The notes below the pieces were generated by a model. It saw nothing but the letters and a program-made list of their open reading frames with translations, did not search any database and was not told the origin of the DNA. Shown in pieces: positions 26,542-29,943 of a stretch of 40,788 nt of DNA; within the stretch, counting starts at the first letter, position 1; every line of letters starts with the position of its first letter. The stretch comes from Candidatus Kerfeldbacteria bacterium CG15_BIG_FIL_POST_REV_8_21_14_020_45_12. GTDB lineage: Bacteria > Patescibacteriota > Patescibacteriia > UBA9570 > XYC2-FULL-38-9. The position numbers were made by a program, and so were the translations under genes. Where the stretch lies: positions 1 to 40,788 of the forward strand of contig PFGC01000028.1 in assembly GCA_002781785.1 (NCBI GenBank). The letters run 5' to 3'.

Positions 26542-27096
26542 ATGTCAGACTCAGATTCATTCGCCAAAAAAATAAAAGAACTCAGTGGTCCTGAAGTTCA
26601 GTTTACGGACGATTTTTTTGAACAGTCTTTTGTTGAAGTAGCATCCTTGCGCTCGCTAAAACAAGGTGCTGCTGAAGGGTCAAAAAGAACCATCACCGAT
26701 GATTACAACCCTCAAGATATCGATGATGAGTGGCTAGAGCAGCCCGATGATGAATCTTATGATGGGCAGCTAGCTGTTGATGTTTATCAGACAGCCGACG
26801 CTATTATTATCACTTCAACCGTAGCCGGAGTGCGTGGCGAAGACCTAGACGTTCAGATGAATGGAGACATGGTTACAATTAAGGGGCGACGTCGTGACCC
26901 AGGTAAAAAAATCCCGGCCGATGACTATTTTTTGCAGGAGTGCTATTGGGGCGGGTTCTCCAGATCAGTAATACTTCCGGTTGATATTCAACACGAAAAG
27001 ATCGAAGCTACTCTAGAAAACGGTATCCTGACCATTAGCTTGCCTAAGTCAGCTCGCTCTCGCAATGGGAAGATTGATGTTTTGGAAGTATCGTAA
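26542..27096 (+). CDS. Hsp20/alpha-crystallin family small heat-shock protein
   Basis: The protein has 184 aa. The alpha-crystallin domain runs from about 76 to 175: LAVDVYQTADAIIITSTVAG, then the core GRRRDPGKK and the conserved strand VDIQHEKIEATLENGILTISLPK near the C-terminus. The acidic N-terminal 75 residues, with many Asp and Glu, are longer than usual and probably flexible. It should be an ATP-independent cytoplasmic holdase chaperone. No SD. The next promoter's -35 begins directly after its stop codon, so the downstream genes have their own start. Confidence 0.92.
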   Translation: MSDSDSFAKKIKELSGPEVQFTDDFFEQSFVEVASLRSLKQGAAEGSKRTITDDYNPQDIDDEWLEQPDDESYDGQLAVDVYQTADAIIITSTVAGVRGEDLDVQMNGDMVTIKGRRRDPGKKIPADDYFLQECYWGGFSRSVILPVDIQHEKIEATLENGILTISLPKSARSRNGKIDVLEVS

Positions 27097-27158: not shown

Positions 27159-27401
27159 ATGTCTATATTTCAAAAAGTCACTGTTAAATCAACCTCTCCT
27201 CAGGCCGTCACCGTCACTCTCCCAGATGGTCACGATTTTGAATGGTCAATCTCTGAAGATGATCCGACGCTAGCTGCCATTAAAGATGGAGATCAAGTTA
27301 TTCTCACACTTACCACTACCCACGCAATTTTGAACGAATTGATGAGCAGTTCCAATGAGCACGCCCCAAACACCCCACAAACAAAACCAGTCCAAGGCTA
27401 A
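27159..27401 (+). CDS. Small protein of unknown function, 80 aa
   Basis: It begins MSIFQKVTVKSTSPQAVTV; residues 1-55 look beta-rich (TVTLPDGHDFEWSI, GDQVILTL) and the tail is hydrophilic. No signal or membrane segment. It follows a promoter and overlaps the start of vanW by 47 nt in another frame, so the two are probably co-transcribed and translationally linked. No family recognised; reality is supported by position and codon use rather than by homology. Confidence 0.65.
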   Translation: MSIFQKVTVKSTSPQAVTVTLPDGHDFEWSISEDDPTLAAIKDGDQVILTLTTTHAILNELMSSSNEHAPNTPQTKPVQG

Positions 27402-29406
27402 GCCTCCCGTTAAGGATCTGCCCGCCTCATCAAAAAAAAGGCAAAGATTCCGGAGAGTTGCCGTTGTTATCTCGGTCTTAGCTAGTATTATTTTACTTAT
27501 TATTGCCATTGGGCTCGGTTTATACGACCAATTTTTGAGTCGTTTTGAGAATAAAGTATATCCAGGTGTGGCGGTGGCTGATGTTGTTGTTTCAGGTTTA
27601 ACCTATAGTGAGGCATTAGAAGCAGTCGACAGTAAGGTAGATCAGTTGTATCAGTCGGGTATACTAATTGAATTTTCTGGGGCAGGAGCAGTAACTGAAG
27701 AGACCAATTCTTCATTGGTACTGCTGCCTGAAATTGTACCGTTATCATTTAGCGGTACGGTGCAGACGCTCTATTCTACTCAAAGTGAAGCTGCTATAGA
27801 TAAAGCCTTTGCCATCGGGCGCACCGGAAGTCAACGGGAGCAGAGTTTGGCTCAGTTTAACGCTTGGCGATCTGGCAGAAATATTATGTTAGACGAAACA
27901 ATTAATCGCCAGATCATTGAGGATCTGATTGTCGAAAACTTTAGTTCTTTTGAATCGCCGTCACAAAACGCTAGTCTATTTATTACTACTGACGGTTCGG
28001 TAGAAATAGTTCCAGAGCAATCTGGAATGGAGTTTGATGTCACTTCAATAGTTGATCAAGTTGTTGAGCAGATCCAGAATTTGGATTCAACTTCCATTGT
28101 AATTTCCTTGCAGTCCATTTCCCCAGAAGTCACAGCAGCAGATGTCACTAATGACCTGGACGTTATTAACGACTTATTATCTCGAGCTCCAGTTACTATT
28201 ACTTGGGAAGATAAGACTTGGACTTATGATCGTGCAGAGGTTGGTAGTTGGTTAAATTATTCTACCCAAGGTCAATTGAGCATTGATGCTAATATTTTAG
28301 AGGACAGTCTCTCAAAGCCAGCCGCTGAGGTTGTGGTTAGTCCTCAAGAAGGCCGTTGGCAGGTTGATAAGGACGCTGGAGGAAGCGTTGTTGGCTTAAC
28401 CCAATTTAGTGAGGCTCAAGAGGGGCGTACGATTGATTACTTGGCCACAAGCGTTGCTATTATGGAGTATCTACAGGGAGTCAGTGATGATGTGGTCTTG
28501 TCCGTGGTAGTAGAAGAACCCAAGTTCTCGCAGGAAAATGCCAATGATTTAGGCATTAAAGATATTCTTGGCACTGGCCACTCCAATATGGCTGGGAGTC
28601 CATATAACCGTCGTCAAAACATCTCACGAGGGATAGAGTTACTAAACGGGTTACTAATTGCTCCTAATGAGGAATTTTCTTTGGTTGATGCTCTTCAGCC
28701 TTTTACCCTTGAGAATGGCTATGTAGCAGAATTAGTTATTAAAGGTAATGAAACAACCCCTGAGGTTGGTGGAGGTCTTTGCCAAATTGGCACTACTACT
28801 TTTCGCGGAGCTATGTTTTCTGGACTTGATATCACCGCCCGTCAAAACCATTCCTATGCCGTGTCCTACTACGCTGATGATCGCAACGGTCTACCTGGCA
28901 CTGACGCCACTATTTATGAAGGCTGGCCTGATCTTCGTTTTATAAATGACACTCCTGGATATATTTTGCTACAGACTCGCCTGGAAGGAAATGATTTATA
29001 CTTTGATTATTGGGGAACCGATGACGGTCGTATAGCTGATTTTACGCCACCAACCATCAGTGGTTGGGTTTCGCCGCCACCAACTAAGGAGGTCGAAACC
29101 ACTGAGCTAGCTCCAGGCGAGCGACGTTGCACAGAGTCAGCCCACGCAGGTACCAGCGCTGCCTTTGATTACACCATTCAATATCTTGATGGCACTTCCC
29201 ATCAAGAGACCTTTACCTCAACCTATAAACCTTGGCAGGCCGTCTGCTTGGTTGGCGTTGACCCGGCGGCTGCTTTAGAAGAAGCTGATACCGTTGATGA
29301 TCCCGTTGAGGACACCACTTCGCCAGAAACGGAGGATCCTGCAGACACCACAGGCGATGTCCAGCCTAAAAAGAAAAAGAACGCAGCTAAAACCACCGGT
29401 GAGTAG
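27355..29406 (+). CDS. VanW-family envelope protein with peptidoglycan-binding-like repeats and a G5-like domain
   Basis: The protein has 683 aa. The N-terminus is basic and cytoplasmic, with one membrane helix at about 35-57. Residues about 60-400 contain two PG_binding_4-type regions (VYPGVAVADVVVSGLTYSEAL near 68). The VanW domain spans about 414-560 with NISRGIELLNGLLIAPNEEF, VGGGLCQIGTTTFRGA and NHSYAVSYY. A G5-like beta domain follows (about 570-640), then an acidic Thr/Pro tail ending in a Lys-rich patch. Such proteins sit outside the membrane and are linked to cell-wall interaction; the exact role is unknown. It ends in a strong terminator. Confidence 0.92.
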   Translation: MSTPQTPHKQNQSKAKPPVKDLPASSKKRQRFRRVAVVISVLASIILLIIAIGLGLYDQFLSRFENKVYPGVAVADVVVSGLTYSEALEAVDSKVDQLYQSGILIEFSGAGAVTEETNSSLVLLPEIVPLSFSGTVQTLYSTQSEAAIDKAFAIGRTGSQREQSLAQFNAWRSGRNIMLDETINRQIIEDLIVENFSSFESPSQNASLFITTDGSVEIVPEQSGMEFDVTSIVDQVVEQIQNLDSTSIVISLQSISPEVTAADVTNDLDVINDLLSRAPVTITWEDKTWTYDRAEVGSWLNYSTQGQLSIDANILEDSLSKPAAEVVVSPQEGRWQVDKDAGGSVVGLTQFSEAQEGRTIDYLATSVAIMEYLQGVSDDVVLSVVVEEPKFSQENANDLGIKDILGTGHSNMAGSPYNRRQNISRGIELLNGLLIAPNEEFSLVDALQPFTLENGYVAELVIKGNETTPEVGGGLCQIGTTTFRGAMFSGLDITARQNHSYAVSYYADDRNGLPGTDATIYEGWPDLRFINDTPGYILLQTRLEGNDLYFDYWGTDDGRIADFTPPTISGWVSPPPTKEVETTELAPGERRCTESAHAGTSAAFDYTIQYLDGTSHQETFTSTYKPWQAVCLVGVDPAAALEEADTVDDPVEDTTSPETEDPADTTGDVQPKKKKNAAKTTGE

Positions 29407-29424
29407 TATACAGAGCCAGTTTAC

Positions 29425-29457
29425 AAAAACTAGCGCTTGAATGCGCTAGTTTTTTTG
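29425..29457. terminator. Terminator after vanW
   Basis: ACTAGCGC and GCGCTAGT with a 6-nt loop, then a run of T. A run of A on the left makes it usable from the other strand too. Confidence 0.92.
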
Positions 29458-29462
29458 GTAAT

Positions 29463-29669
29463 AAAAAAGTGACCATCACTATTCAGCAGGCAAGAGAATG
29501 TATATTTGGAAGATTCGAGCCGGAGCCTGAATTTTCCAAGGAACACCTTCCCATGCTTGTCGTGCCTGCTGGATAGTTGTGGCCACCCAATAAATCACTT
29601 TTTCAACAAATCTCTTATTTGTTTACCTCGTCCTTAAGACCTCTGAAGTCAGGTCATGTCGATTAGGAC
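29463..29669 (-). ncRNA. Candidate structured non-coding RNA, about 207 nt (family not recognised; possibly 6S-like)
   Basis: A consensus promoter points into it and it ends in a hairpin followed by six T. The minus-strand RNA has three parts. Hairpin 1 near the 5' end is GACCU...AGGUC inside GUCCUAA...UUAAGGAC. Hairpin 2 is AACAAAU...AUUUGUU. The third is a hairpin of about 118 nt whose outer stem pairs 24 positions with two mismatches (GUGGCCACAAC... with ...GUGAUGGUCAC), with an internal bubble, a small GGAA...UUCC stem and an apical UUGGAA...UUCCAA helix. A long hairpin with a central bubble recalls 6S RNA, but SRP, tmRNA, RNase P and T-box signatures are absent. Function is inferred only. 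Confidence 0.68.
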
Positions 29670-29674
29670 CGGAG

Positions 29675-29703
29675 AGTATATCAGCGTCCGCGCGTCCTGT
29701 CAA
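29675..29703 (-). promoter_or_regulatory. Strong promoter of the candidate ncRNA
   Basis: The minus strand reads TTGACA, 17 nt, TATACT, as good as any promoter in the window, and ends in the same CTGATATACTC as the tRNA-Glu promoter. Confidence 0.85.
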
Positions 29704-29748
29704 GGCCTGTCTACGCGACGGGCGGTGTTTTTTGCCCAACATTAGTTC

Positions 29749-29897
29749 TTTTCCACAGATTATGTGGATTAAACTGTGGACAGTTCAATGGGTGGGCGCC
29801 CTATTAGGGGGAGACAATTGACAAAATAGCCTCAAAATGCTACAATAACCTCATAAGTAAGCGCTCATCCACAGTTTATTTATAAACTGTGGAAAAA
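29749..29897. other. Cluster of five DnaA-box-like 9-mers
   Basis: TTTTCCACA (29749-29757), TAATCCACA (29763-29771, minus), CTGTCCACA (29775-29783, minus), TCATCCACA (29865-29873) and TTTTCCACA (29889-29897, minus). Each differs from TTATCCACA at one position, or two for the third. The last two form the arms of a 10-bp inverted repeat. They flank the promoter of the giant gene. This could be an origin or a DnaA-regulated promoter. Confidence 0.5.
29818..29846 (+). promoter_or_regulatory. Strong promoter of the second giant surface protein gene
   Basis: TTGACA, 17 nt, TACAAT with a TGC extension; the spacer is related to that at 8324-8340. The leader of about 90 nt contains CCACAGTTTA-TTTA-TAAACTGTGG (29869-29892) and TCGCTAA-GA-TTAGCGA (29918-29933). 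Confidence 0.9.
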
Positions 29898-29943
29898 CTT
29901 ATCTGGCGCCATCTGTTTCGCTAAGATTAGCGATAGTAGTACC

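Follow-up and report, generated by a model that had tools for sequence, protein, structure and literature searches.

A near-universal small RNA of ABY1-class Patescibacteria that probably regulates cell division by base-pairing and is unlikely to be a 6S RNA

The window analyzed here is a stretch of 40,788 nucleotides (contig PFGC01000028.1, positions 1 to 40,788 of the forward strand; GenBank assembly GCA_002781785.1) from Candidatus Kerfeldbacteria bacterium CG15_BIG_FIL_POST_REV_8_21_14_020_45_12, which has a genome of 1.2 Mb and whose relatives are ABY1-class Patescibacteria. An Hsp20-like gene (26542..27096, plus strand; an ORF named from its sequence) is followed by a VanW-family gene (27355..29406, plus strand; an ORF with a VanW domain at 28606-29010). 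Convergent with the latter lies, on the minus strand, what on the evidence of its sequence is a genuine small RNA gene, not named before. A separate bidirectional terminator-like hairpin (29425..29456) can be recognized between the end of the RNA and the VanW stop codon; Rfam matches over this hairpin are at chance level only. Of 112 related loci, 93 have VanW next to the RNA, whose orientation relative to VanW flips between genomes, and 62 have the cluster of the Hsp20-like gene near the RNA. Here we describe computationally the gene with its promoter and conserved structure, its near-universal presence in the class and the complementarity of its seed to mraZ leaders, and we interpret its role.

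The promoter is composed of a -35 box TTGACA (29698..29703, minus strand) and a -10 box TATACT (29675..29680, minus strand), with a 17-nt spacer and a TG ahead of the -10 box. Over 29703-29675 it agrees with the consensus at 11 of 12 positions, which bears out the promoter proposed in a preliminary description of this DNA. The predicted transcript of about 206 nt extends on the minus strand from about 29668 to 29463 and ends in a T6 run (29468-29463). It comprises a predicted 5' domain of two small hairpins (29590..29668, minus strand) and the conserved RNA proper, i.e., the main hairpin with its T6 tail (29463..29588, minus strand). In the preliminary description a terminal hairpin preceded the T6; the T6 is there, but the hairpin is not a separate element, being the main stem itself, in which 29588-29563 pairs with 29492 to about 29468, as had been claimed for the long stem. 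The additional 5' hairpins, previously regarded as unusual, are present as well, but they are a lineage-specific addition missing from many relatives, in which the -10 box is only 22-55 nt from the core. A near-perfect sigma70 promoter (at least 10 of 12 positions) was found on the RNA strand in 73 of 108 related loci and on the opposite strand in 6 of 108, and T-runs come after the 3' strand of the hairpin; judged by sequence, the RNA thus has the promoter and terminator of its own that are expected of an sRNA. An ORF noticed by eye in the hairpin was considered as a small protein and rejected in view of the short distances between promoters and core, the freely covarying stems and the changes in length. 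DnaA-box-like sites (TTTTCCACA / TGTGGAAAA) are located just upstream of the RNA promoter, at window positions 29749-29896; such sites occur upstream of the RNA in only 5 of 105 related loci.

The folding energy of the transcript is -71.3 kcal/mol, as compared with a mean of -50.7 kcal/mol for shuffled sequences (z -5.1); the hairpin alone yields z -6.1, and none of 200 shuffles was equally good. What had been described as a bubble is actually a one-sided bulge, in which 10 nt of the 5' strand (29562-29553) face a single nucleotide of the 3' strand. In stem P2 the 5' strand, CAGCAGGCA (29563..29571, minus strand), pairs with 29484-29492, and 7 of the 9 pairs show compensatory changes among 50 sequences. 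The apical GGCUCCGGCU (29518..29527, minus strand) forms three pairs closed by a UNCG-type tetraloop. Relatives have in common a 9-bp P2, a 10-nt one-sided bulge, a stem P3 and an apical GGCUNNGGCU; the last formed part of the DNA search pattern for relatives, and its conservation extends to the copies found by BLAST and by covariance model (CM). P2 is often prolonged by a lineage-specific outer stem, and some relatives close with the 9-bp P2 alone.

Covariation among relatives, one of the checks proposed in the preliminary description, was examined in an alignment built by sequence and not fitted to structure. Compensatory changes (two-sided, with pairing kept) are seen at 18 of 26 pairs, and the covariation score is 0.582, versus 0.188 for shuffled and at most 0.142 for slid alignments. 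Stem pairs vary freely, except for two on either side of the bulge, and invariant G-U pairs adjoin it. The unpaired bulge (29553-29562, 10 nt) and the two closing pairs on each side make up one nearly invariant 14-nt block, CACGACAAGCAUGG (29551..29564, minus strand), of which variant copies exist but are rare. Such invariance next to covarying neighbors is what one would expect of a block that has to match something else; a conserved unpaired seed between covarying flanks is, moreover, what is looked for in an sRNA. At loci of the Magasanikbacteria type (L017, L020, L036, L041, L042, L055, L081, L082, L089) an upstream element about 40-70 nt 5' of the hairpin is complementary to the 5' strand of P2 (z as high as 4.5 relative to shuffled sequences), which would permit two alternative folds, each excluding the other; this element may be a switch, or it may reflect chance over repeated tests.

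BLAST recovered the RNA in 10 of 57 relatives. The R1 CM of the hairpin core, built from 50 diverse sequences, matches the window at 29481-29575 (E 9.5e-24, the window being a member of the training set) and finds the RNA in 131 of 144 ABY1 genomes (118 of 126 among good genomes), usually in single copy. In a sample of the phylum the CM matched 21 ABY1 genomes and, weakly, four other Patescibacteria. When named species genomes were scanned with a DNA pattern, the matches listed were almost exclusively from Kerfeld-, Magasanik-, Uhr-, Falkow-, Komeili-, Buchanan- and Jacksonbacteria; the few records carrying other names are either chance matches (e.g., L011) or probably mislabelled bins (e.g., L032). 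The latter, Lysobacteraceae bacterium OTbin.42, has the full ABY1 RNA and matches a place in class genome G420, and its name is probably wrong. The RNA is present twice, with a few hundred bases between the copies, in genomes G041, G355, G382, G405 and G418 and at loci L015, L058, L121 and L124. At gathering level no Rfam family matches the RNA, and the matches around it at E<=10 are at chance level only. The covariance search with 6S, SRP and other Rfam models recommended in the preliminary description was thereby carried out; neither Rfam nor ARAGORN gave a match, in line with the signatures of SRP, tmRNA, RNase P and T-box having been reported as missing. The promoter, the Rfam result, the class-wide CM matches and the covariation uphold the earlier view of a strongly promoted, structured RNA gene of no recognized family.

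Complements of the seed were sought in 38 genomes of the class. Besides the RNA itself, the 11-nt seed complement hits mostly coding coincidences and the mraZ leaders of G041, G018 and G035; it also occurs between rsmH and ftsL in G039 (gene names read from sequence). Other 11-mer complements in the 38 genomes were considered as targets and rejected, being mostly in-frame Met-Leu-Val codons. The link to mraZ arose from viewing all 11-mer matches, and in the later tests leaders were picked regardless of a match. Among 99 such mraZ leaders, seven (families f12, f29 and f35) contain an exact seed complement of 12-16 nt, compared with a mean of 0.002 for shuffled seeds. Ten contain a complement of at least 9 nt (9-16), versus none on the opposite strand and a mean of 0.23 (maximum 3) for shuffled seeds; not one of 1000 shuffled seeds reached ten leaders. 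The distribution is bimodal, matches being long or absent: 87 of the 99 leaders, including that of the window's own genome, have no 8-nt match, and the best matches to the seed come from a minority of families. Because most mraZ leaders lack a match, mraZ alone cannot explain the class-wide invariance of the seed. Complementarity to unlinked mRNA leaders beyond chance, a further property expected of an sRNA, was found for mraZ leaders and not in the window's own genome. Targets in that species were checked on the mraZ contig and with one 11-mer pattern; a site is missing from its mraZ leader, and the single 8-nt match along the mraZ contig falls inside mraZ.

Unselected word counts in the same leaders, with words resembling MraZ boxes and promoters filtered out, gave CCATGCTTGTCG and ATGCTTGTCGTG, 12-mers already encountered as seed complements, among the commonest 12-mers; DnaA-box words (TTATCCACA) are the other common class in ABY1 mraZ leaders. 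In a pattern search of 381 genomes, 15 of the 29 that belong to families f50 and f51 had TGCTTGTC at most 33 nt behind a MraZ box, and the reversed-pattern control was positive in 7 of the 381. Families f50 and f51 are taken as Magasanikbacteria because their RNAs match named Magasanikbacteria loci. An mraZ start was recognized downstream of 16 of 30 fetched sites (families f35, f50, f51 and f173); 14 of these sites are 17-48 nt upstream of the start and the others 107 and 194 nt upstream. Two more sites, those of G215 and G182, resemble these, the script having failed to recognize an mraZ start there. Seed sites are near the mraZ start codon in Magasanikbacteria-like genomes and 80-230 nt upstream of mraZ in some other lineages, where stable hairpins often follow. 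The predicted energies of the seed-leader duplexes range from -14 to -28 kcal/mol. The surroundings of the RNA genes, 1.75 Mb of strand in all, contained no non-self, non-tandem 12-nt seed match; apparent extra targets near the RNA (L015, L058, L068, L121, L124) were rejected as tandem second copies, the match running on into stem sequence. Pairing of the seed with rRNA was likewise rejected, with no run of at least 9 nt in E. coli 16S, 23S or 5S rRNA and duplex energies no better than those of shuffled seeds.

Taken on sequence grounds, the RNA probably regulates cell division by base-pairing, as opposed to being a 6S RNA. The reading that we favor, and hold with reasonable though far from complete confidence, is a trans-acting antisense sRNA whose bulge-presented seed pairs with mRNA leaders, mraZ being one target in several ABY1 lineages. 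The locus would produce, constitutively and strongly, a small RNA of about 200 nt that acts in trans; its rigid hairpin would present the invariant seed in an exposed one-sided bulge, and the seed would pair with mRNA 5' leaders and thereby alter translation, stability or attenuation. In several lineages one such leader would be that of mraZ, the first gene of the division/cell-wall (dcw) cluster. We infer that the pairing takes place in cells and has a regulatory effect. Repression would be its most likely form because many sites are 17-48 nt upstream of the start codon; the far-upstream sites with hairpins in some lineages and the sites near the start in Magasanikbacteria-like genomes point to attenuation or a block of translation. 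The data are best read as mraZ being a recurrent target across lineages, with no such site in the leader of the window's own species; other targets presumably exist, in that species as well.

The preliminary description had suggested a 6S-like RNA polymerase regulator, in which the hairpin would mimic an open promoter. The size of the RNA, its strong housekeeping promoter and its single copy fit this suggestion, as does the fact that no 6S RNA is otherwise found in these genomes. The 6S model RF00013 is silent in the window (E<=10 over 29300-29900) and in 28 relatives (E<=1), although it is an insensitive model, positive in only 5 of 14 control genomes. A 6S RNA should have a large central bubble open on both strands, whereas the RNA described here has 10 nt facing 1 nt with covarying pairs on both sides, is closed in some relatives merely by the 9-bp P2, and keeps a bulge sequence that is invariant, which is not a 6S requirement, and complementary to mraZ leaders of several families. 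The suggestion is therefore unsupported, and we consider it improbable. A somewhat better case, though still an unlikely one, can be made for a housekeeping ribonucleoprotein RNA whose bulge binds a conserved protein, the mraZ matches being secondary or lineage-specific. It would accommodate the near-universal single-copy presence and a seed that is invariant even where mraZ has no match, and the invariant G-U pairs by the bulge could form a compact protein site; it would not explain why the mraZ leaders of several families repeatedly contain the complement, and only on the sense strand.

That the structure acts only in cis, as terminator or 3' end structure for the VanW gene convergent with it, is very improbable. 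VanW does adjoin the RNA in most loci and also in another class, but the RNA strand has strong promoters of its own, the relative orientation is not constant, the bulge sequence is conserved and the window has a separate terminator-like hairpin. A highly diverged SRP RNA was considered after the SRP model RF00169 had found nothing in the phylum sample (0 of 116 Patescibacteria genomes, nor in the window or its relatives). It was dropped and is effectively refuted: the Ffh M domain (PF02978), which binds SRP RNA, is missing in 19 of 19 ABY1 relatives and present in 14 of 14 controls, and no SRP loop motif is apparent. SRP thus appears to be missing in ABY1, and relatives of the window genome are hereby documented as being without recognizable SRP RNA or Ffh M domain.

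To our knowledge, gene and division regulation in Patescibacteria is largely unknown, and a literature search found no paper dealing with ABY1 structured RNAs or with how Patescibacteria regulate mraZ. The phylum gains a previously unnamed, probably regulatory RNA, near-universal in ABY1, with a predicted target in the leader of the division cluster; a small-RNA network may thus have been retained throughout an entire class with reduced genomes. In Rhodobacter sphaeroides, the dcw leader and UpsM are both bound by the sRNA StsR, which influences expression of dcw (PMC8307010, PMC5089854). As described, StsR resembles the proposed regulator in acting in trans on a dcw leader (mraZ first) and affecting cell division, and in some ABY1 leaders the site is accompanied by a stable hairpin ahead of mraZ; no homology is apparent. 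StsR is stress-induced and Hfq-bound, whereas the ABY1 RNA occurs throughout the class, is preceded by a strong promoter of the sigma70 type and carries its seed in the bulge of one long hairpin. With EcpR1 of Sinorhizobium and base-pairing sRNAs generally (PMC4414408) the ABY1 RNA shares a short conserved seed, turnover of target sites between lineages and a link to the cell cycle, but its seed is conserved far more deeply (through the entire class) and lies in an asymmetric bulge, not in a tail or loop. 6S RNA (RF00013) is similar in its strong promoter, its length of about 200 nt and a long hairpin broken by an unpaired region, and differs in that the ABY1 RNA has a one-sided bulge, no match to the model and complementarity to mRNA.

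More speculatively, the RNA might be a class-defining master riboregulator of ABY1, one invariant seed controlling entry into division via mraZ/dcw leaders, a view that we regard as possible but doubtful. If it were true, distant homologs by VanW or ruvB in other Patescibacteria classes would represent an ancient riboregulator of the radiation. Weak CM matches outside ABY1 keep the promoter and the hairpin, but not the seed. Those at L147, L180/L208 and L197 are convergent to VanW and that at L149 is beside ruvB; when the regions behind VanW genes of other classes were inspected for the RNA, only L197 and L208 were clear cases. The few sequences available suggest that the RNA predates the ABY1 class, with a different bulge elsewhere. 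Probable homologs in other Patescibacteria classes, all with a differing bulge, are L147, L180, L208, L197, L149 and L150, and in L197 an insert of 50 nt folds into an additional arm. Short hairpins with the same CACGACAAGCAU motif and without the upper stem occur at L152 and L148, the latter bordering a masked stretch.
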